From positions 1,116,001-1,180,000 of the forward strand of contig NZ_NBTM02000001.1 in assembly GCF_002083135.2 (NCBI RefSeq): 64,000 nt of DNA, given 5' to 3'. The DNA is from Aerococcus viridans (lineage in GTDB: Bacteria > Bacillota > Bacilli > Lactobacillales > Aerococcaceae). The notes beneath the pieces are model-generated. The model searched no databases, had not been told where the DNA came from, and saw nothing but the letters and a program-made list of their open reading frames with translations. This document shows, piece after piece, positions 1 to 44,345 of this stretch; positions within the stretch are counted from its first letter, which is position 1, and every line of letters starts with the position of its first letter. Made by a program: the position numbers and the translations under genes.

Positions 1-902
1 ATGAATCGGCGTCAGCAGCGGCGCGTTTGATTGATGAAGAGGGCGTATCAGCGATTGTTGGGCCGTCATTGACCGCTAACTTCCAAGCGCAAATTAATGC
101 AGCTACACAAGCACAAGTGCCATTTATTGGGCCAGCGGTAACAAGTGATGGGGCGACCTTGGATTCAAATGGTGAAGCTTATGAATATGGGTTCTCGGTA
201 GCCTTCCTAAACTCCTTCCAAGGGGGCGCAATTGCACGTTTTTCAAATGACCAAAGCTATGAAACGGCAGCGGTTATGCAAGATAACTCGTCAGATTACG
301 GACAAATCTTGTCAGACGAATTTACTGCATCCTTTGAAGGGGATGTTGTGGCAACTGAATCTTATGTATCAGGCGATACAGACTTCTCTTCTATCTTAAC
401 GAATATTAAATCTAAAAATCCTGATGTTATTTTTATTGCTGGTTACTATACTGAAGCGGGAACAATCATCAAACAAGCACGTGAAATGGGTATTGAAGCA
501 GCGATTGTTGGACCAGATGGTTTGGCATCAGAAGAGTTGAGCTCACTTGCGGGTGAAGAAAACATGAATGACATCTACTACGTGTCTCATTTTGCCTCAG
601 ATGAGGATGCTTCAAAAGCCTCTCAAGAATTCTCAGCAGCTTTTGAAGAAGCTTACGGTAAAGCGCCTGATGAGTTTGCTGCCCTAGGTTATGACGCGGT
701 TTACCTATACGCAAATGCGGTAGAAGAAGTGGGTTCTGAAGACAACCAAGCCATTGCTGAAGCGATTGCTAACACCACTGACTTCCAAGGGGTAACTGGT
801 GCGATCACAATGAAAGAAGACCATACACCAAATAAAACAGCCTACATCCAAGAGATTCAAAATAATGAAGTGGTTGGATCAACTGCAGTAGCGCCAGAAT
901 AG
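1..902 (+). CDS. Branched-chain amino-acid ABC transporter binding protein, 5'-truncated by window edge
   Basis: This is the C-terminal roughly 300 residues of a LivJ-type periplasmic-binding-fold protein that captures Leu/Ile/Val-like ligands outside the cell for a LivHMGF permease. The frame is open from base 3 (ESASAAARLIDEEG), which aligns with the ARLIDEEN stretch of the two downstream paralogs. The signal peptide and lipobox therefore lie off the left edge, and no start should be placed inside. Family-typical blocks are IAGYYTEAG, KQAREMGIE and ALGYDAVYLYANA. It is the first of three tandem paralogs and is the most diverged from the other two. Ligand identity is inferred from the downstream livHMGF genes. 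Confidence 0.9.
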   Translation, partial: ESASAAARLIDEEGVSAIVGPSLTANFQAQINAATQAQVPFIGPAVTSDGATLDSNGEAYEYGFSVAFLNSFQGGAIARFSNDQSYETAAVMQDNSSDYGQILSDEFTASFEGDVVATESYVSGDTDFSSILTNIKSKNPDVIFIAGYYTEAGTIIKQAREMGIEAAIVGPDGLASEELSSLAGEENMNDIYYVSHFASDEDASKASQEFSAAFEEAYGKAPDEFAALGYDAVYLYANAVEEVGSEDNQAIAEAIANTTDFQGVTGAITMKEDHTPNKTAYIQEIQNNEVVGSTAVAPE

Positions 903-960
903 GCTTTAGTACTTTTATACTTTAAAAAAGAATCTCCGGATTTTCTAGCAAATTTCTAAT

Positions 961-980
961 AAAAGGCTTGTAAGCCTTTT
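961..980. terminator. 9-bp palindrome after the first binding-protein gene
   Basis: The arms AAAAGGCTT and AAGCCTTTT are separated by 2 bases. It could be a short bidirectional terminator, or an operator because it overlaps the -35 box at 968. The run of T is only four long, so termination would be weak. Confidence 0.4.
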
Positions 981-996
981 AAAACTTTGTTATATT
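968..996 (+). promoter_or_regulatory. Promoter for the Ile leader / second binding protein
   Basis: TTGTAA at 968-973, a 17-base spacer, then TATATT at 991-996. The transcript would begin near 1003, just upstream of the leader-peptide ribosome binding site. Confidence 0.6.
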
Positions 997-1037
997 AATA
1001 GCAACTCATTAAGAACAAATTAGAAAGGGAGTGGAAC

Positions 1038-1124
1038 ATGATGAAAACAGCTGTAAAACAATCATACAATGTCAATAATCTTGTTTCGTCAACCTTTGCT
1101 AACATTATTATTATTATTAACTAA
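1038..1124 (+). CDS. Isoleucine-rich leader peptide (28 aa)
   Basis: A short ORF (MMKTAVKQSY..., 28 codons) follows a good ribosome binding site (GAAAGGGAG at 1023-1031). It contains five consecutive ATT (Ile) codons at 1104-1118 just before its AAC-TAA end. A run of codons for the regulated amino acid, followed by a terminator hairpin (1180-1212) and then a branched-chain amino-acid transport gene, is the classic layout of ribosome-mediated attenuation. Ribosome stalling under Ile shortage would alter folding of 1132-1190. That such leaders control ilv genes in Lactococcus is known. Its use here for a transporter binding protein is inference. It is too short to be a functional protein. Confidence 0.75.
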   Translation: MMKTAVKQSYNVNNLVSSTFANIIIIIN

Positions 1125-1131
1125 GGGGATT

Positions 1132-1212
1132 CTACAAATGTGTAGGGTCCTATTTCTCGTTAATGAGGGCCTTGGTTAGAACGACGGTCCTAAAGAGGCT
1201 GTCGTTTTTTTT
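1132..1212 (+). terminator. Attenuator: competing hairpins ending in a rho-independent terminator
   Basis: The terminator stem pairs ACGACGGTC (1181-1189) with GGCTGTCGT (1197-1205), allowing G-U pairs, followed by eight T. Upstream segments can pair in mutually exclusive ways: CTACA/TGTAG (1132-1136 with 1141-1145), AGGGTC with GGCCTT (1144-1149 with 1168-1173), and GGCC with GGTC (1168-1171 with 1186-1189). The last pairing would break the terminator. Pairings were read by eye. Confidence 0.7.
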
Positions 1213-1291
1213 ATGGCAAATAATGATGTAGCGCTTGGGTTTGAACATGAGGCAAAATTAAAATCAATTACGTTCTAGGGAGGACATATAG

Positions 1292-2479
1292 ATGACATTT
1301 AAAAAATTAGCTTTAACTTTACTATCTACCGTCACTTTAGCTGCTTGTGGGGCTGCGACTTCTACTAGCAATTCAGGCGCTTCAAACACTGCAGACAACG
1401 AAACTTTCAATGTCGGTGGTAACTTTGGTTTATCAGGTGCCTTTTCTGCTTACGGTACTGCGATCAATGATGGTGCAGCCTTAGCTTTCAAAGAAATCAA
1501 CGAAGATGGTGGTGTCTTAGGTAAAGATGTGAACTACATCTCTGTAGACAACAAGTCAGATGCAACTGAATCAACTACGCAAACTGCTCGTTTAATTGAT
1601 GAAGAAAACATCTCCGTTTTAGTGGGTTCTGATACAACAGGTTCAACTGAAGCACAAATCCAAACAGCGACTGACGCAAGTGTGCCAATTGTTGCACCAG
1701 CAGCGACAGGTGACTCATTAACATTAGATAGCTCTGGTAATGTGTTGGATTACGTATTCCGTGTGCCATTCCAAGATGCTTTCCAAGGTTCTGTATTAGC
1801 GGAATTTGCCAACCAGGAAGGTTACGAAACTGCAGCAATCATCCAAGATAACTCCTCTGACTACGGTCAAAACTTAGCAGCTGAGTTCGATGACATCTTT
1901 GAAGGTGAAGTAGTCGGAACTGAATCTTACGTTTCAGGTGATACTGACTTCAACTCAATTTTAAATAACATCGCTTCTAAGAACCCGGATGTAATCTTTA
2001 TCGCTGGTTACTACACTGAAGGTGGTTCAATTGTGAAACAAGCACGTGAAATGGGTATTGAATCAGCAATCTTAGCACCAGATGGTTTCGGGGCTGAAGA
2101 ATTCGTTGAATTAGCTGGCGCTAAAAACGTGAATAACTTCTACTATACTGCTCACTACACAACTGGTGAAGGGGCAACTGATAAAACAACTGAATTCGTT
2201 GAAGCCTTTGAAGCAGAATACGGTTCAGCACCAAACATGTTTGATGCTTTAGGTTATGACGCAGCTTACTTAGTAGCAGATGCAGCTGAACGTGCGGGCG
2301 AAGATGACCGTCAAGCGATCACAGATGCCTTATCTGAAACAACTAACTTTGAAGGGGTAACTGGTACATTCTCATTTGATGAAAACCACAACCCAGTGAA
2401 AACTGCTTACATCATCGAAATGGAAAATGGTGAAGAAGTAGGTTCTTCAGCAGTAAGTCCAGAAGATGTCGCCAACTAA
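1292..2479 (+). CDS. Branched-chain amino-acid ABC transporter binding lipoprotein
   Basis: A 395-residue LivJ-type solute-binding lipoprotein. Residues 1-19 form a lipoprotein signal peptide with lipobox LAAC (Cys19). A short Ser/Asn/Thr linker and the two-lobed periplasmic-binding fold follow (VGGNFGLSGAFSAYG near 41-55; IFIAGYYTEGG and KQAREMGIE in the middle). The start is ATG with AGGGAGG upstream. It lies behind the Ile-codon attenuator, so expression probably rises when charged tRNA-Ile is scarce. It is very similar to the following paralog. It is expected to feed the LivHMGF permease encoded 1.7 kb downstream. The exact ligand among Leu/Ile/Val cannot be read from sequence. Confidence 0.93.
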   Translation: MTFKKLALTLLSTVTLAACGAATSTSNSGASNTADNETFNVGGNFGLSGAFSAYGTAINDGAALAFKEINEDGGVLGKDVNYISVDNKSDATESTTQTARLIDEENISVLVGSDTTGSTEAQIQTATDASVPIVAPAATGDSLTLDSSGNVLDYVFRVPFQDAFQGSVLAEFANQEGYETAAIIQDNSSDYGQNLAAEFDDIFEGEVVGTESYVSGDTDFNSILNNIASKNPDVIFIAGYYTEGGSIVKQAREMGIESAILAPDGFGAEEFVELAGAKNVNNFYYTAHYTTGEGATDKTTEFVEAFEAEYGSAPNMFDALGYDAAYLVADAAERAGEDDRQAITDALSETTNFEGVTGTFSFDENHNPVKTAYIIEMENGEEVGSSAVSPEDVAN

Positions 2480-2611: not shown

Positions 2612-3808
2612 ATGATGAAAATGAAAAAAATGCTTTTAACAATGGGTTCTTTAATGATGTTGGCGGCCTGTGGTTCAGTGACGCAAACATCCAACAATGC
2701 AAGCTCAACTAGCGAGAGTAGCGGAGATACTATCAAGATTGGTGGTAACTGGGACTTATCTGGTGCTGGTGCAGCCTATGGTGGCCCGGCAAATGAAGGG
2801 GTTAAATTAGCTTTTAAACTGGCGAATGATGCTGGTGGCATTAACGGTCAAACGATCGAATATGTTGAAGCTGACAACCGTACTGATCCAAATGAGTCTG
2901 CCAATACAGCAACACGCTTAATTGATGAGGAGAATGTACAAATGATTATCGGACCAGCAACAACCGGTGCATTTGAAGCACAAATTCCAACTGGAACGAA
3001 TGCTAAAATACCAATGATTGCGCCAGCTGCGACGGGGGATACCTTAACAGTTGATAGTTCTGGTAATACATTAGAGTACGTTTTCCGTGTAGCTTTCCAA
3101 GATGCTTTCCAAGGTTCGGCACTTGCAAGTTTTGCTAATGGTGAAGGTTATGAAACTGCCGCAATTATCCAAGACAATTCAACTGATTACGGACAGAACT
3201 TATCTGCTACGTTTGAAGAAGAATTCCAAGGAAACATTGTTGCAAATGAGTCATACATTGCAGGTGATTCTGACTTCAATTCAATCCTAAATAACATCGC
3301 TTCTGACGATCCGGATGTAATCTTTATAGCTGGTTACTATTCAGAGGGTGGTCCAATCGTTAAACAAGCACGTGAAAAGGGAATTGATGCAGTTATTCTG
3401 GCACCAGATGGTTTTGGTAGCCAAGAGTTTATTGATTTAGCGGGTGCGGAAAATGTAACCGACTTCTACTACACTTCTCACTATACAACTGGTGAAGGGT
3501 CAACAGAAGCAACGGCAGAATTTATTGAAGCATATGAAGCTGAATACGGTAAAACACCAGACATGTTTGCTGCTTTAGGTTACGATGCGGCCAACTTAGC
3601 GATTGACGCTATTGAACGTGCAGGATCAGGTGATCCAGCTGCAGTAACAGCTGCAATTGAAGAAACAGAAGAATTTGCTGGTGCGACCGGTACATTCTCA
3701 TTCGATGACCAACATAATCCAATCAAGACAGCTTACATTCTAGAAATGCAAGAAGGTGTAGTTGTAGGTTCTACTACAATCTCTCCAGACGACATCGTGA
3801 GTGAATAG
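2612..3808 (+). CDS. Branched-chain amino-acid ABC transporter binding lipoprotein (third paralog)
   Basis: A 398-residue LivJ-family lipoprotein with signal peptide and lipobox LAAC, a Ser/Thr-rich linker, then the binding fold (IGGNWDLSGAGAAYG, IFIAGYYSEGG, KQAREKGID). ATG 2612 and ATG 2615 are both usable after TGGAGGAA (2601-2608). The TTG at 2600 lies inside the ribosome binding site and is unlikely. It is colinear along its whole length with the preceding gene, so this is a tandem duplication. Charged linker and loop differences may tune ligand choice. It has its own promoter at 2533 and is followed by a large inverted repeat before livH. Confidence 0.92.
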   Translation: MMKMKKMLLTMGSLMMLAACGSVTQTSNNASSTSESSGDTIKIGGNWDLSGAGAAYGGPANEGVKLAFKLANDAGGINGQTIEYVEADNRTDPNESANTATRLIDEENVQMIIGPATTGAFEAQIPTGTNAKIPMIAPAATGDTLTVDSSGNTLEYVFRVAFQDAFQGSALASFANGEGYETAAIIQDNSTDYGQNLSATFEEEFQGNIVANESYIAGDSDFNSILNNIASDDPDVIFIAGYYSEGGPIVKQAREKGIDAVILAPDGFGSQEFIDLAGAENVTDFYYTSHYTTGEGSTEATAEFIEAYEAEYGKTPDMFAALGYDAANLAIDAIERAGSGDPAAVTAAIEETEEFAGATGTFSFDDQHNPIKTAYILEMQEGVVVGSTTISPDDIVSE

Positions 3809-4221: not shown

Positions 4222-5100
4222 ATGGAGATGTTTTTGCAACAGCTTGTAAACGGACTCTCTTTGGGTGGTATTTATGCCCTTATGGCTTTAGGTTATACAA
4301 TGGTATACGGAATTATCGGCTTGATTAACTTCGCGCACGGTGATGTTTATATGGTTGGAGCCTTTTTTGGTTTTTGGTTAATTACGGGGTTAGGGATGAA
4401 TATTATTCCAGCACTTATATTAACAATGATTTTTACAGCAATTTTAGGGGTAATTATTGAGCGTGTGGCATACAAACCTTTACGTAAATCAACACGTATT
4501 GCAGCCTTAATTACGGCAATCGGGGTATCTTACCTATTACAAAACTTTATGATCTACTATGTAGGACCAGAAGTACGTGCCTTCCCTACATCATTACCAA
4601 ACTTATCATTAGATTTAGGTTTATTTACGATTTCAACACAACAAGTGGTGATTTTCATTGTAACGATTATCTTGATGATTGCCCTACAGTACATTGTTCG
4701 TCAAACAAAAATGGGCCAAGGTATGCGTGCAGTATCTGTAGATGCTGATGCAGCGCGTTTAATGGGGATTTCAGTAGATAATGTCATTTCCTTTACGTTC
4801 GCTATTGGATCGGCTTTAGCTGGTGCTGGTGGGGTATTAGTTGGTATCTACTATAATTCTATTTCGCCAACTATGGGACTAACACCAGGTATTAAAGCTT
4901 TCGTAGCCGCTGTTTTAGGTGGTATCGGATCAATTCCTGGTGCCATGTTAGGTGGTATTTTAATCGGTGTGGTTGAATCAATGGTATCTATGATTGGTTT
5001 ATCTACTTGGCGTGACGCTGCGGTTTACTTCATTTTGATTATCATTTTAGTCTTCAAACCTAGCGGATTGTTAGGTAAAGGCACACAAGAGAAAGTATAG
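4222..5100 (+). CDS. livH: Branched-chain amino-acid ABC transporter permease LivH
   Basis: A 292-residue inner-membrane permease subunit of the HAAT family. It has about eight hydrophobic segments, the family block YGIIGLINFAHGD near the N-terminus, and a conserved GIGSIPGAMLGG loop near the C-terminus that contacts the ATPase. It pairs with LivM to form the translocation path. The start is ATG after AAAGGAAG. It is the first gene of livHMGF, with 8 bases to livM. Length is normal for the family. Confidence 0.95.
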   Translation: MEMFLQQLVNGLSLGGIYALMALGYTMVYGIIGLINFAHGDVYMVGAFFGFWLITGLGMNIIPALILTMIFTAILGVIIERVAYKPLRKSTRIAALITAIGVSYLLQNFMIYYVGPEVRAFPTSLPNLSLDLGLFTISTQQVVIFIVTIILMIALQYIVRQTKMGQGMRAVSVDADAARLMGISVDNVISFTFAIGSALAGAGGVLVGIYYNSISPTMGLTPGIKAFVAAVLGGIGSIPGAMLGGILIGVVESMVSMIGLSTWRDAAVYFILIIILVFKPSGLLGKGTQEKV

Positions 5101-5108
5101 GAGGGTGT

Positions 5109-6095
5109 ATGATGAAAAAAGAATCATGGGCAAAAAACTTCTTTACTAAATCAACAATTACTTGGATTTGTGTGATTTTGGGACTATTCTTCTTAATCAT
5201 GGCAGCCTATTTAATGGGATTAGTAACGTCGTTCTATCAAAATATTATAGTGACAATTGGGATTAATATGATCCTAGCTGTTGGCTTAAACTTAGTAGTA
5301 GGCTATGCGGGACAATTCTCGCTTGGTCACGCAGGGTTTATGGCGATTGGTGCCTACGTTGGTGCCATCCTTTCAACGCAAATTCCAGGACCAATCGGTT
5401 TCTATGCTGGTATGGCTGCTGGGGCTGTTTTAGCAGCTATCGTCGCTTTAATCGTAGGGGTTCCTACCTTACGTTTGAAAGGTGACTACTTAGCGATTGC
5501 AACTTTAGGGGCTTCTGAAATTATCCGTATCATCATCCAAAACTTGGAAATCACTAACGGTGCCGCTGGTATCTCAGGTATTCCAATGAACGTAACTTGG
5601 ATTACTCTATTTATCTTCATCGTTTTAACAACACTATTAATTGTAAACTTTATTCATTCTAGCCCAGGACGTGCAACAATTGCTGTTCGGGAAAATGAAA
5701 TAGCTGCCGAATCTGTTGGGGTAAAAACAACCAAATATAAAATCATTGCCTTTGTTATTGGTGCCATTACTGCATCAATCGCAGGTACTTTATATGCAGG
5801 TTACTTCTCAGTAATCAACCCATCCCAATTCACTTTCCAACGATCAATCGACGTGTTAATCATCGTTGTATTCGGTGGTATCGGATCAGTAACAGGTTCA
5901 TTCGTTGCAGCCATCGCTTTAGGTTTACTAAACTCAGTTTTAGCCCCTTTAGGTCAATTACGTATGGTTGTATATGGTATCGCGATTATCGCCATCATGG
6001 TATTCAAGCCATCAGGTTTGATGGGTGATTTTGAATTACAATTCAGTAAATTATTCAACCGCAAGAAAAAAGATTCTGATAAAGAGGAGGCATAA
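5109..6095 (+). CDS. livM: Branched-chain amino-acid ABC transporter permease LivM
   Basis: A 328-residue second permease subunit with around nine hydrophobic segments. It carries the LivM hallmarks NLVVGYAGQFSLGHAGF and GGIGSVTGSF plus a cytoplasmic Lys-rich tail (NRKKKDSDKEEA). Two ATG codons start the frame (5109, 5112) behind AGGAGGG. It lies between livH and livG with gaps of 8 and 2 bases, so the four genes are one transcription unit. LivM in Gram-negatives has an extra N-terminal region that is absent here. Confidence 0.95.
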   Translation: MMKKESWAKNFFTKSTITWICVILGLFFLIMAAYLMGLVTSFYQNIIVTIGINMILAVGLNLVVGYAGQFSLGHAGFMAIGAYVGAILSTQIPGPIGFYAGMAAGAVLAAIVALIVGVPTLRLKGDYLAIATLGASEIIRIIIQNLEITNGAAGISGIPMNVTWITLFIFIVLTTLLIVNFIHSSPGRATIAVRENEIAAESVGVKTTKYKIIAFVIGAITASIAGTLYAGYFSVINPSQFTFQRSIDVLIIVVFGGIGSVTGSFVAAIALGLLNSVLAPLGQLRMVVYGIAIIAIMVFKPSGLMGDFELQFSKLFNRKKKDSDKEEA

Positions 6096-6097
6096 CC

Positions 6098-6871
6098 ATG
6101 TCATTATTGACGATTAAAGATTTAAATAAAAATTTTGGCGGGTTAGCCGCTGTATCGAATGTAAATATTGATTTAGAAAAGAATGAATTAGTTGGTCTTA
6201 TCGGCCCTAACGGTGCAGGTAAAACGACATTATTCAACTTGCTGACTGGTGTTTATGAGCCGAGTTCAGGTGAAGTAAAATTATCAACTGACGAAGGTGA
6301 CGTGGTTTTAAATGGTAAAGAGCCAAGTGAAATCAACCGCTATGGTTTAGCAAGAACCTTTCAAAATATCCGTTTATTTGGTCAGTTGACTGTTTTAGAC
6401 AACGTGTTAGTAGCTTTACATACTAAACACGGCGCTAGCTTCTTGTCTAGTGTTTTACGTACGCCAGCTTTCTACAAAAACCGGGAAGAATTAAAAGAAC
6501 GCGCAATCGAATTGCTAAGTATTTTTAACCTTCAAGATTTACTATATGAAAAAGCGAAAAACTTGCCATATGGTCAACAACGTCGTCTAGAAATCGTTCG
6601 TGCCTTAGCGACTGAGCCAAAAATCTTATTCTTGGATGAACCAGCTGCAGGGATGAACCCAAATGAAACAGCTAATTTAACTGAATTAATCCGTCAAATT
6701 CAAAAAGATTTCGACATTACAGTAGTCCTTATCGAGCATGATATGTCGCTAGTAATGAATGTGTGTGAACGTATCTACGTATTAGAATACGGTAAATTGA
6801 TCGCCCACGGTACACCTAGTGAAATCCAAAGTAATCCAGCTGTTATCAAAGCTTACTTAGGAGGCGAGTAA
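6098..6871 (+). CDS. livG: Branched-chain amino-acid ABC transporter ATPase LivG
   Basis: A 257-residue cytoplasmic ATPase. Walker A is GPNGAGKTT (36-44), the signature is the LivG-type YGQQRRLEI rather than LSGGQ, Walker B is ILFLDEP, and an AGMNP D-loop and switch His (IEHDMSLV) follow. It dimerises with LivF to power LivHM. The start is ATG behind GAGGAGGC, 2 bases after livM. Nothing unusual. Confidence 0.96.
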   Translation: MSLLTIKDLNKNFGGLAAVSNVNIDLEKNELVGLIGPNGAGKTTLFNLLTGVYEPSSGEVKLSTDEGDVVLNGKEPSEINRYGLARTFQNIRLFGQLTVLDNVLVALHTKHGASFLSSVLRTPAFYKNREELKERAIELLSIFNLQDLLYEKAKNLPYGQQRRLEIVRALATEPKILFLDEPAAGMNPNETANLTELIRQIQKDFDITVVLIEHDMSLVMNVCERIYVLEYGKLIAHGTPSEIQSNPAVIKAYLGGE

Positions 6872-6874
6872 AAT

Positions 6875-7594
6875 ATGACAATGTTAGAAGTGAAAGATTT
6901 GAAAGTCTCATACGGCATGATTGAAGCGATTAAAGGGATTAGCTTTGAAGTCAATCAAGGCGAGATTGTTTCCCTAATCGGTTCCAATGGTGCGGGTAAA
7001 TCCACAACCTTACGGACAATTTCAGGTATCAAACCAGCTAAAAGTGGTCAAATTCTTTATGAAGGACAAGATATCCTAAAATCAAACGCAATGAATATTG
7101 TAAAAGCAGGTATTTCTCAAGTACCTGAAGGGCGTCACGTATTTAAAGGGATGTCAGTTAAGGAAAACTTGTTAATGGGTGCTTACACTCGTAAAGACCG
7201 TGATGGCTTAAAAGAGGATATGGAAAAATCATTTGAATACTTCCCAATCATTAAAGAGCGTTTAAATCAAGACGCAGCGACTTTATCAGGCGGGGAACAA
7301 CAAATGGTTGCCATGGCAAGAGCTTTAATGGCTAAGCCAAAATTACTATTATTAGATGAGCCATCAATGGGGTTAGCGCCATTATTCATTCAACAAATCT
7401 TCAATATTATTGAAGAAATCAATGCAGCTGGTACAACAGTACTATTGATTGAACAAAATGCCAAGCAAGCATTAAGCATCTCTGACCGTGCTTACGTTAT
7501 GGAAACTGGTAAAATTTTATTATCAGGAACCGGTCAGGAATTATTAACTTCTGAGAAAGTACAAGAAGCTTATCTTGGTGGGGCAATGATCTAG
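6875..7594 (+). CDS. livF: Branched-chain amino-acid ABC transporter ATPase LivF
   Basis: A 239-residue ATPase with Walker A GSNGAGKST, the Q-loop region SQVPEGRHVF typical of LivF, signature LSGGEQQM, Walker B LLLLDEPSMGLAP and switch His replaced by Gln (LIEQNA), which is normal in LivF. It is the last gene of the operon, 3 bases after livG, with GGAGGCGA as ribosome binding site inside the livG tail. A strong terminator follows at 7614. Confidence 0.96.
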   Translation: MTMLEVKDLKVSYGMIEAIKGISFEVNQGEIVSLIGSNGAGKSTTLRTISGIKPAKSGQILYEGQDILKSNAMNIVKAGISQVPEGRHVFKGMSVKENLLMGAYTRKDRDGLKEDMEKSFEYFPIIKERLNQDAATLSGGEQQMVAMARALMAKPKLLLLDEPSMGLAPLFIQQIFNIIEEINAAGTTVLLIEQNAKQALSISDRAYVMETGKILLSGTGQELLTSEKVQEAYLGGAMI

Positions 7595-7613
7595 ATTTAT
7601 ATAATCTTAATAT

Positions 7614-7652
7614 AAGCGTTGAGTAATCGTAATGGTTTACTTAACGCTTTTT
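7614..7652 (+). terminator. Terminator of livHMGF
   Basis: AAGCGTTGAGTAA (7614-7626) pairs with TTACTTAACGCTT (13 bp, one G-U), followed by a T run. Confidence 0.85.
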
Positions 7653-7723: not shown

Positions 7724-8467
7724 TTGGCAAAGAAAAAGAAACAAGCAAGACGCAAATTAAATGGTTGTCAAGGTTGGTTGAAAGGGTATCAACAAGCATT
7801 CAGGCTAATTTTCAAAAAAAGAAAATATAAAAAAATACAATATATTTCGAAGAAGAAACGTTCACAACGTCGTAAAGAAATATGGTTAGGAACACTTGCA
7901 ATTCTTGGATTAATGCTATTTTTCCTTTCCCGAGACTATCAAGGCGTACCCACGTCAAGTGAGACCACCAGTGAAGAGGTGGAAATAATATATACGGACC
8001 AAGAATTTGTGGATTTAATTGGTCAATATGCAGTAACTGAATATCCTAAATCTCATGTATTACCAAGTATTGTCACTGCCCAAGCAGTATTAGAATCTAA
8101 TTTTGGTAAAAGTCAATTATCCAGTGAGTATTTTAATTTATTTGGCCGTAAATCGTATAGCCCAAATGATCCAAGTGTAGATTTACCCACACAAGAATTT
8201 GTGAATGGCCAATATATTACGGTGGATGAGCCTTTCCGAGTTTATACATCTTGGGAAGAATCAGTAGCTGATCACGGAAGATTACTTGCAAACGGCACTT
8301 CATGGAATGAAACACATTATAATGGTGTTTTGAATGCAAGGTCGTATAAAGAAGCTGCCTATGCCTTGCAAGAAGCTGGGTATGCTACCGATCCTAATTA
8401 TGCGGAATCTTTGATAGATGTGATAGAAAGATACGAATTAACTCGGTTTGATAACCAGGTTCAATAG
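7724..8467 (+). CDS. Membrane-anchored glucosaminidase (GH73 family)
   Basis: Peptidoglycan hydrolase, 247 residues, expected to cleave N-acetylglucosaminyl bonds at the cell surface. I choose TTG 7724 because AAGGAGGTGA (7707-7716) sits 7 bases upstream. The ATG at 7673 has no such site. The N-terminus is extremely basic (about 50 residues rich in Lys/Arg), then one membrane segment (roughly residues 55-70), a short linker, and the GH73 domain with likely catalytic Glu in AVLESNFG. SSEYFNLFGRK and a C-terminal YATDPNYAE block follow. Such enzymes act in daughter-cell separation or wall turnover. It appears to be a single-gene unit. No cell-wall-binding repeats are present, so the transmembrane anchor must localise it. 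Confidence 0.88.
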   Translation: MAKKKKQARRKLNGCQGWLKGYQQAFRLIFKKRKYKKIQYISKKKRSQRRKEIWLGTLAILGLMLFFLSRDYQGVPTSSETTSEEVEIIYTDQEFVDLIGQYAVTEYPKSHVLPSIVTAQAVLESNFGKSQLSSEYFNLFGRKSYSPNDPSVDLPTQEFVNGQYITVDEPFRVYTSWEESVADHGRLLANGTSWNETHYNGVLNARSYKEAAYALQEAGYATDPNYAESLIDVIERYELTRFDNQVQ

Positions 8468-19694: not shown

Positions 19695-19714
19695 TATAGG
19701 TGTTGAAAAGAGAA

Positions 19715-19956
19715 TATGATTTGTTAGGCAGAGGCTCCTATACAAACACAGGCTACTGCCCAGAAACGTCCAGAGACGCCAATGGGTATAACAGGATCAT
19801 CCGAATAGAAGGAATTTCTAACGTAGCTAACAGTAATGTTTACGTTGTATAGTGCTAAAACTCCACGAAAAGATCGAATAACAAGAAGAGGTGTATACCC
19901 ATTTTTGTTGTGGATATTTAGAGTAGGCTCTCGCTAATTTTAGTGGGGGCTTTTTA
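19715..19956 (+). ncRNA. M-box (ykoK-type) magnesium riboswitch
   Basis: The leader matches the M-box consensus in order: GTTAGG...GAGGCTCCTATAC (19723-19743), CTACTGCCC (19754-19762), AACGTC-AGAGACGCC (about 19765-19780), AATGGGTATAACAGGATCA (19781-19799), and a closing region before a terminator. The downstream gene is a Mg2+-importing P-type ATPase, the usual client. High Mg2+ would favour the terminator at 19927 and shut expression. Confidence 0.9.
19927..19956 (+). terminator. Riboswitch expression-platform terminator
   Basis: GCTCTCGCTA (19927-19936) pairs with TAGTGGGGGC (19941-19950) using G-U pairs, followed by TTTTTAT. Confidence 0.75.
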
Positions 19957-41723: not shown

Positions 41724-41746
41724 ACGTATACAATCAAAGAACACAA

Positions 41747-41841
41747 CTTATTCAGAGCAAGTGGAGGGATTTGGCCCTATGAAGCTTCAGCAACCTACCT
41801 TTGGCAAGGTGCTAATTCCAACTCGAAAGAGATAGATGAGT
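41747..41841 (+). ncRNA. SAM-I (S-box) riboswitch
   Basis: S-box landmarks in order: CTTATTCAGAGCAAGTGGAG (41748-41767), GGCCCTATGAAGC, CAGCAACC, then a P3 hairpin (ACCTTTGGCAAGGT), GCTAATTCCAACTC and GATAGATGAG. P1 pairs CTTATT (41748-41753) with GATGAG (41835-41840). SAM binding would favour the terminator just downstream, so the next gene is off when SAM is abundant. Confidence 0.9.
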
Positions 41842-41856
41842 CTAACCAAGTTATTG

Positions 41857-44089: not shown

Positions 44090-44345
44090 CAATACGCGAT
44101 GATGGGATAAGTATTTTATGACCCTTGCTGAGAGAGCCTATGTGTGGTGGAAGTAGGTCAAGGAGATTAGAAGAAAATGGTCTTGGAGTATAATAGTTTG
44201 AGCCTAAGATAGGTGAGGATTATTCGGGAGCCCCCGTTACAGGGAAAGAGTACAATGATTTTTAGCGTACTCTGTGAGTTTATATTAGCAATAATATAAT
44301 AAATTAAGGTGGTACCATGAAGTAGCTTTCATCCTTTGCATAAGC
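44090..44345 (+). ncRNA. T-box leader, probably tRNA-Met-responsive
   Basis: Stem I features include GAGAGAGCC (44131-44139) and GGTGGAAGTAGG. The T-box sequence AAGGTGGTACCATGA is at 44306-44320. A candidate specifier ATG sits at 44177-44179 (GAAAATGGT), matching the methionine-related downstream gene. Uncharged tRNA-Met would stabilise the antiterminator. Confidence 0.85.

Follow-up and report, generated by a model that had tools for sequence, protein, structure and literature searches.

Ribosome-mediated attenuation of branched-chain amino acid (BCAA) biosynthesis has experimental support in Listeria (PMC5864092) and in S. aureus (PMC5794164), as described in the accessible parts of these reports, from which the following comparisons are also taken. 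The ilv-leu leader of Listeria monocytogenes, Rli60 (RF02414), combines a BCAA-rich leader peptide of 13 amino acids with alternative pairings and a terminator in front of BCAA genes, and its antiterminator is drawn as a 2:3 pairing; mutants of its start codon or Shine-Dalgarno (SD) sequence had lowered ilvD transcription under low BCAA and showed no significant effect in the other medium (PMC5864092). The S. aureus attenuator controls ilvD and thus biosynthesis as well, has a peptide of 26 amino acids with mixed control codons (three Ile, two Leu and three more Leu codons) and uses a GAAUGG motif that pairs with the U tract as antiterminator (PMC5794164). T-boxes often control BCAA biosynthesis in Bacillales and Clostridia and also stand, as one RNA type whose codon sets the amino acid, before BCAA transporters; unlike the element described here, they bind uncharged tRNA and have no translated leader (PMC2494555). 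Histidine leader peptides before the paralogous hisS and hisZ genes of bacilli are likewise leader-peptide attenuators on paralogs of Firmicutes, however the same amino acid is read on the paralogs (PMC2965389).

The published attenuators concern BCAA biosynthesis, and none was found on a Gram-positive BCAA binding protein in the PMC literature, with few subscription papers among the sources and each source seen in part (also PMC6123439, PMC8079631, PMC9413887, PMC8632094). The element described here precedes such a gene and is very probably a ribosome-mediated transcription attenuator with isoleucine control codons. An earlier sequence-only reading of the locus had called isoleucine sensing to control the binding subunit of an importer unusual for a Gram-positive bacterium. 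This has to be narrowed, as attenuators of BCAA biosynthesis with a similar core are known from Listeria and S. aureus (PMC5864092, PMC5794164), but the importer receptor as target and the different codons on paralogs are indeed unusual. The kind of element is therefore already known, while its use on paralogous receptors with different control codons was not found in print in the portions of the PMC literature consulted.

The window, i.e. the whole analysed stretch of 64,000 bases, corresponds to positions 1116001-1180000 of contig C1 of the Aerococcus genome G000, and the leader elements and genes described at its start lie on the plus strand. It opens with three tandem genes for binding proteins. 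The first, livJ1 (1-902), starts 280 bases before the window and its leader core lies outside at G000:1115469-1115587; the second is livJ2 (1292-2479), the regulated gene; the third is livJ3 (2612-3808). They are followed by livHMGF-type permease and ATPase genes at 4222-5100, 5109-6095, 6098-6871 and 6875-7594 (PF02653 twice, PF00005 twice). The earlier assertion that only the second of the three binding proteins carries a leader is wrong, as livJ1 has a Leu-run leader outside the window and only livJ3 is devoid of one. Correctly recognised was the LivJ-type gene behind the leader: livJ2 encodes a Peripla_BP_6 protein (PF13458, E 7.9e-64), the solved structure that matches it best is that of a branched-chain amino-acid binding protein (4gnr, E 1.3e-80), and its place in a liv-type operon makes it a predicted BCAA-binding protein. 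Its match to NCBIfam PRK15404 stays under the cut-off (129.5 versus 477).

Upstream of livJ2, ATG codons are found at both 1038 and 1041. As 1041 is the sole leader ATG in the close relatives G006, G012 and G014, a start at 1041 with 27 codons is likelier than one at 1038, which adds one Met in G000. The leader ORF (1041-1124, MKTAVKQSYNVNNLVSSTFANIIIIIN; peptides are given up to their stop codon) is preceded by a purine-rich SD sequence, AAGGGAG, at 1025-1031 and contains five consecutive ATT (Ile) codons at 1104-1118, followed by AAC TAA (Asn-stop) at 1119-1124. The five codons are Ile also in four relatives except for one Leu codon in G005. The short ORF with its SD sequence and its run of codons for the presumed regulating amino acid thus looks like an attenuator leader. 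Of the first description, a 28-codon ORF with a strong ribosome binding site that ends in five ATT codons, the good SD sequence and the run were retained, but the length is more probably 27 codons and an Asn codon intervenes before the stop. A promoter-like site, TTGTAA-17-TATATT at 968-996, is the presumed leader promoter. The consensus scan finds such sites no more often than in shuffled sequence (4 versus 4.4 expected), and the sole further support is a TATATT box at the same position in two relatives. CodY control was considered and dropped: in the whole window, five CodY-like sites with at most three mismatches were found against 10.7 expected, the nearest at 7807.

Downstream of AAC TAA the sequence can form a hairpin of 26 bases and additional inverted pairings, and ahead of livJ2 stands an intrinsic terminator with T8 at its end. 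Segment A (1117-1126) overlaps the last Ile, the Asn and the stop codons and pairs with A' (CCTTGGTTAG, 1170-1179). Segment 1 (1127-1136) pairs with segment 2 (1141-1150), which can also pair with segment 3 and whose core motif GTCCTATTT, nearly invariant among 24 leaders, runs on to 1155. Segment 3 (AGGGCC, 1166-1171) pairs either with segment 2 or with the 5' arm 4a of the terminator (1178-1212), which is composed of a hairpin at 1178-1208, where 4a includes 1186-1191 and 4b is 1197-1206, and of the T8 at 1205-1212. This anatomy and the complementarity of the segments are established.

We propose that, when charged Ile-tRNA is scarce, the ribosome translating the leader would stall on the ATT run and cover segment A while segment 1 stays free, so that 1:2 could form. 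With 1:2 formed, segment 3 would be free for 4a, the terminator would be pre-empted and livJ2 transcribed. With plentiful isoleucine, a ribosome at the stop codon would cover A and 1 and make 2:3 possible, and after its departure A:A' may form; either pairing would withdraw segment 3 and let the terminator form. Ribosome stalling, read-through in starvation and a decision between 3:4a and the terminator by timing are what we infer. We consider the chances even that the pairing logic of 1:2, 3:4a, 2:3 and A:A' is correct in exactly this form.

The region is unusually stable. The fold of 1035-1215 has -46.6 kcal/mol (z -3.8) and that of 1125-1215 a z of -4.3, with none of 200 shuffles equally stable in either case. 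Folding with and without a ribosome mask, suggested earlier as a check, gave a divided answer. In transcripts ending at 1190 or 1195, 1:2 forms together with 3:4a when the A-site is on Ile2, Ile3 or Ile4, and the best fold has 2:3 when it is at the stop; the full-length ensemble, however, keeps the terminator in all ribosome states. If the transcript is cut just before 4b with the A-site at the stop, the ensemble has 6.3 pairs of 3:4a and 2.8 pairs of 2:3. The number of 3:4a pairs in the window leader is 6.6 as mean over the Ile codons versus 6.3 at the stop, a small difference. Full-length RNA favours the terminator, the one exception among the ribosome states being the minimum free energy fold for the A-site on Ile3, in which 3 pairs with 4b; antitermination would therefore have to be kinetic and take place during the passage of RNA polymerase, as is the case for other attenuators. 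Without a ribosome, truncated RNA has 8.3 pairs of 3:4a and 3.8 of A:3, and full-length RNA has 8.6 pairs of A:3, with A:A' forming beside the terminator. Over 24 leaders and with a 10-base footprint, 3:4a at the stop was at most half of the control-codon mean in 13 and lower by more than 0.5 pair in 19; the two counts were 12 and 18 with a footprint of 8, and 14 and 18 with a footprint of 13.

RNAalifold on a mixed alignment of 24 leaders found the terminator as the only structure, therefore the structures were tested singly on two type-specific alignments, type A being the window-type leaders. The permutations and shuffles used in these tests ignore the relatedness among the leaders. In 17 type-A leaders, 97.7% of the A:A' cells are paired, and four of the eight pairs show double changes (nine double-change cells); the number of double changes was reached by 7 of 500 shuffles, the covariation score by none and the number of pair types by 240. 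Where Ala (GCT) behind the control run is replaced by Asn (AAC), A' has changed to match. For 3:4a, 86.8% are paired and three of six pairs have double changes (five cells), a number reached by 53 of 500 shuffles, whereas the covariation score was reached by none. Covariation of A:A' and of 3:4a is thus established, and the latter gives the attenuator an alternative antiterminator with comparative support. The earlier claim of alternative pairings before a T8 terminator stands. Compensatory change in relatives and paralogs occurs in these two pairings; 1:2 is paired in 86.3% of cells and shows no double change among the type-A leaders, and segment 1 is supported by ribosome-masked folding and by the swap test described below. 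The 13 type-B leaders are highly paired (1:2 90.2%, 2:3 93.0%, 3:4a 97.8%) with little variation, and as their measures are reached by 27 to 500 of 500 shuffles they prove little by themselves about the pairings. The swap test covered 22 leaders of both types; for 1:2, 2:3, 3:4a, 4a:4b and A:3, the own partners paired better than in any of 2000 permutations.

Isoleucine might also control the leader through an antiterminator other than 3:4a, such as 3:4b or the 2:3 pairing of the four-segment rli60 model, or with read-through of untranslated RNA. Such variants share in the probability of attenuation, and we regard them as a real though lesser possibility. The 3:4b duplex is strong in the window (-13.2 kcal/mol) and constitutes the minimum free energy fold of 1125-1215 and, when the A-site is on Ile3, that of the full leader as well, truncated RNA forms 3:4a even with no ribosome, and the published rli60 and S. 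aureus models, as far as the accessible text goes, use other antiterminators (PMC5864092, PMC5794164). Across the 22 leaders, however, 3:4a beats swapped partners and 3:4b does not, its own partners being equalled by 553 of 2000 permutations, and we rejected 3:4b as general antiterminator. In addition, the fall in ilvD transcription of the rli60 start-codon and SD mutants under low BCAA, reported in the part of the source seen, would agree with termination as default (PMC5864092). For the leader itself, only the full-length fold speaks for termination in untranslated RNA, since 3:4a forms in truncated RNA. Which antiterminator is used and what untranslated RNA does by default are the weakest points of the explanation by attenuation.

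The conservation of the leader is established as well. A close relative of livJ2 (at least 82% identity) is present in five of the 15 genomes of the genus (G000, G005, G006, G012 and G014), and the Ile leader precedes it in all five, where run, stop, core and terminator recur. Three named records have it as well, A. agrisoli, Aerococcus sp. UBA6277 and Aerococcus sp. 1KP-2016. In one relative an ATT is replaced by ATC, a silent change in this reading frame. The peptides of G005 and A. agrisoli, with an unrelated N-terminus, end in KIIILIN and thus keep Ile at four of the five control positions. Such a leader is absent from the LivJ loci of Aerococcus G003, G004 and G013, and a search of plasmids gave one E. 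faecalis record, matching inside the LivJ gene only. In the genomes with this gene, a loss of the Ile run or terminator, which would have spoken against the first observation, was not encountered, and an Ile-codon leader with alternative structures before a BCAA receptor is confirmed by sequence, folding z-scores and conservation.

Three further explanations are much less probable. A plain terminator in a 5' UTR, with an accidental ORF and a hairpin that ends read-through from livJ1 or acts constitutively, could account for a hairpin that is a good terminator alone and dominates the full-length ensemble in every ribosome state; however, relatives have kept the Ile run and its stop, A:A' in relatives and paralogs varies together with the codons that follow the run, and sister leaders have BCAA runs at the same place, which makes this explanation very unlikely. 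Even less credible is a tRNA- or metabolite-binding riboswitch, T-box or other, in place of sensing by the ribosome, despite the frequent use of T-boxes for BCAA biosynthesis in Bacillales and Clostridia noted above (PMC2494555, seen in part), because the conserved feature is a codon run in a translatable frame and no Rfam family reaches its threshold at the leader though M-box, SAM and T-box elements were found elsewhere in the window. The T-box model RF00230 has no match at 950-1300, the only T-box in the window being at 44090-44339, and at the window leader and six related loci no Rfam family reached threshold apart from a tRNA; a T-box, riboswitch or other Rfam identity of the leader was accordingly dropped. 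That the ORF encodes a functional small hydrophobic peptide, as its good SD sequence and hydrophobic C-terminal run might suggest, is similarly improbable, because its N-terminus drifts (three to six replacements, zero to three silent changes and no frameshift in 27 codons between pairs of four close genomes; wholly different in G005) and only run and stop are kept, which is the pattern of a sensor and speaks against a function of the peptide itself.

Among known RNA families, Rli60 resembles the element in the core, AGGACU...GUCCUAUU...GGGACUU being similar in the ilvB leader of G000, but has a biosynthetic target instead of a receptor (PMC5864092, accessible part). The window leader scores 21.3 bits (E 1.6) with RF02414 at a cut-off of 60, and the best match in G000, the ilvB leader, reaches 31.9 bits (E 0.018), also under the cut-off. 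A loose search with RF02414 (E up to 10) matches 5 of 14 control genomes as well, two of them archaea, none over the cut-off. Judged by sequence, the element would be rli60-like in core and not a member of this family. The leu-phe leader of Lactococcus (RF01743) has a similar core and aligns to the ilvB leader of G000 with 24.7 bits; the window leader scores 16.5 bits against a cut-off of 70. The scattered attenuators, namely rli60, S. aureus ilvD and the Aerococcus set, suggest a common RNA core.

The leader of livJ2 is one of at least eight related attenuators in G000 that precede four LivJ genes, ilvB, ilvE, a thiolase gene and the gene of an SDR enzyme and that carry Leu, Ile or Val/Ile codons. 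The leaders of livJ1 and livJ2 end in HASLLLLLA and FANIIIIIN, those of livJ4 and livJ5 in KHIVIIIIDSRT (Ile/Val) and HQNLLLLLAN. The others, found with the covariance models described below (R1 and R2) and one pattern search, read VVIII for ilvE, IVVIIVT for ilvB, six Leu for the thiolase and four Leu for the SDR oxidoreductase. The six-Leu attenuator (L061, G000:1020317-1020435, minus strand; also L059) lies before the thiolase gene, behind which a metallo-beta-lactamase-superfamily protein is encoded, and the attenuator of the SDR-family oxidoreductase (L187) is at G000:1877787-1877895, minus strand. The control amino acid of each LivJ paralog is established: livJ1, livJ2, livJ4 and livJ5 each keep theirs in the five genomes that hold them, apart from minor interruptions: in G005, the Ile run of livJ2 contains the one Leu and the livJ5 leader has four Leu followed by Val, and in G006 and G014 a Ser interrupts the Leu codons of livJ5. 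The reading was confined to run and core for livJ1 of G006 and for livJ5 of G014. A survey of LivJ loci found a BCAA-run leader with core upstream in 16 of 27 and none in 11. It covered 27 of 37 LivJ places, left out the window's own L001 as well as L019, L020 and L032, the rest having no locus, and excluded chance ORFs without a core behind them (L023 and L024 among them). The earlier idea that the cell could switch receptor under Ile starvation is strengthened, although as a set of Leu, Ile and Ile/Val leaders and not as a single Ile exception.

The same arrangement recurs outside this genome, with Val runs in other genera. In G034, G055, G056 and G057, Ile, Leu and Val leaders stand before separate LivJ genes; the Val leaders read NVVVDAVRT or NVVVDVVRT. 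A tree built from 30 LivJ proteins separates the receptors of these genomes into a Leu, a Val and an Ile group (100/100, 100/100 and 82/80), of which the last is weak and does not include G057. A strict match between receptor group and control amino acid is broken by a further LivJ of G057, absent from the tree, which is 81.5% identical to its Val-leader neighbour and has a clearly similar leader that reads MLLLSNMKLNNAIIIIINGLRT (Ile), so that the tandem pair at L122:250-3172 represents a natural codon swap, Val versus Ile. A neighbouring LivJ pair in G035 has the leaders VVVIVI and IIIII. These pairs with differing leaders imply that control codons changed after duplication.

A change of reading frame may be another source of new control codons. 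The Leu leaders of livJ5 and of the thiolase gene (LLLLLAN) read IIIIS in another frame with a stop at hand, a reading that the livJ1 Leu leader does not have. The repeat of livJ2 lies at the same place relative to the core as in the Leu leaders, but is read in the ATT frame. The livJ2 leader core shares 81-84% identity (gaps uncounted) with the cores of this genome's livJ1, livJ5 and thiolase leaders; for livJ4 and ilvE the figure is 75-76%. The LivJ2 protein, in contrast, groups with livJ4 (91/92, moderate support). A frame change as origin of the livJ2 Ile leader would be plausible.

Leu, Ile and Val resemble one another chemically, and BCAA transporters are commonly regarded as broad. Separate starvation sensors for Leu, Ile and Ile/Val on sister receptors suggest that uptake is tuned per amino acid and that the cell may raise the receptor for whichever amino acid is missing. 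We tentatively propose, at somewhat less than an even chance, that through a single exchangeable attenuator core each paralogous BCAA receptor has an amino-acid address of its own, that shortage of Leu, Ile or Val induces the receptors singly, and that the control codons predict the ligand, BASS-type transporters included. As part of the same tentative proposal, the address would be easily rewritten, either where a tandem duplicate exchanges its codons (Ile for Val or Val for Ile in G057) or where one (ATT)n/(TTA)n repeat is read in a different frame (Leu versus Ile). Leader codons would then provide a cheap, testable predictor of ligands for binding proteins and poorly known transporters.

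BASS-like transporters of several genera are likewise preceded by Ile or Ile/Val leaders of this RNA type (L080, L084, L117, L119, L120, L121, L123 and L124). Two of these eight transporters were tested with HMMs and are PanS-like below the NCBIfam cut-off and above the Pfam SBF cut-off; the leaders hint at transport of branched-chain amino or keto acids. In G050, a Val/Ile/Leu leader of the same type (L116) precedes the ORF 438-1457 (minus strand) for a PTS_EIIC_2 (PF13303) membrane protein.

For the wider distribution, two covariance models were used, R1 built from 13 leaders, none of them of livJ2, and R2 from 17 leaders including that of the window. R1 detects the window leader with 33.8 bits (E 6.8e-4) in a targeted search of 25 chosen sources with 132,633 bases; genome-wide scans with R1 under stricter filters list other G000 leaders and not that of the window, and the scan of the family lists the livJ2 leaders of G006 and G012. 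At E<=0.1, R1 has matches in 40 of 76 family genomes, of which only part of the loci were read and some near the limit are false; R2 at E<=0.01 has matches in 24 of the 76. Two R1 matches, L134 (E 0.004) and L137 (E 0.0115), have no BCAA leader, look like bidirectional terminators and were discarded. At E<=0.001, R1 has matches in 27 of 299 class genomes, 19 of them from the genus g89 and one from its family. Reading of 26 loci showed an ilvD-like start downstream in 24, a leuA-like gene in one and an unclear gene in one; these calls were made by eye, and one ilvD was confirmed by HMM. The g89 ilvD leaders are of the S. aureus type, and some of their peptides, e.g. MTNLNTQHQPTTSNIIILLYSLGLER (26 amino acids), fit the published S. 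aureus leader as given in the part of the report seen (PMC5794164). In some ilvD leaders of g89 and its kin (L141-L164), UGGGAC upstream of the terminator can, by eye, pair with GUCCCA in the 5' arm, unlike the published U-tract antiterminator (PMC5794164, in part).

R2 also matches at G005:C33:29952-30063 (minus strand, E 1.8e-12), just upstream of the sixth LivJ gene of that genome. Within the window, R1 gives a weak match at 7513-7651 (E 0.089), and an M-box at 19713-19880, a SAM riboswitch at 41745-41842 and the T-box leader at 44090-44339 each score above their Rfam cut-off.
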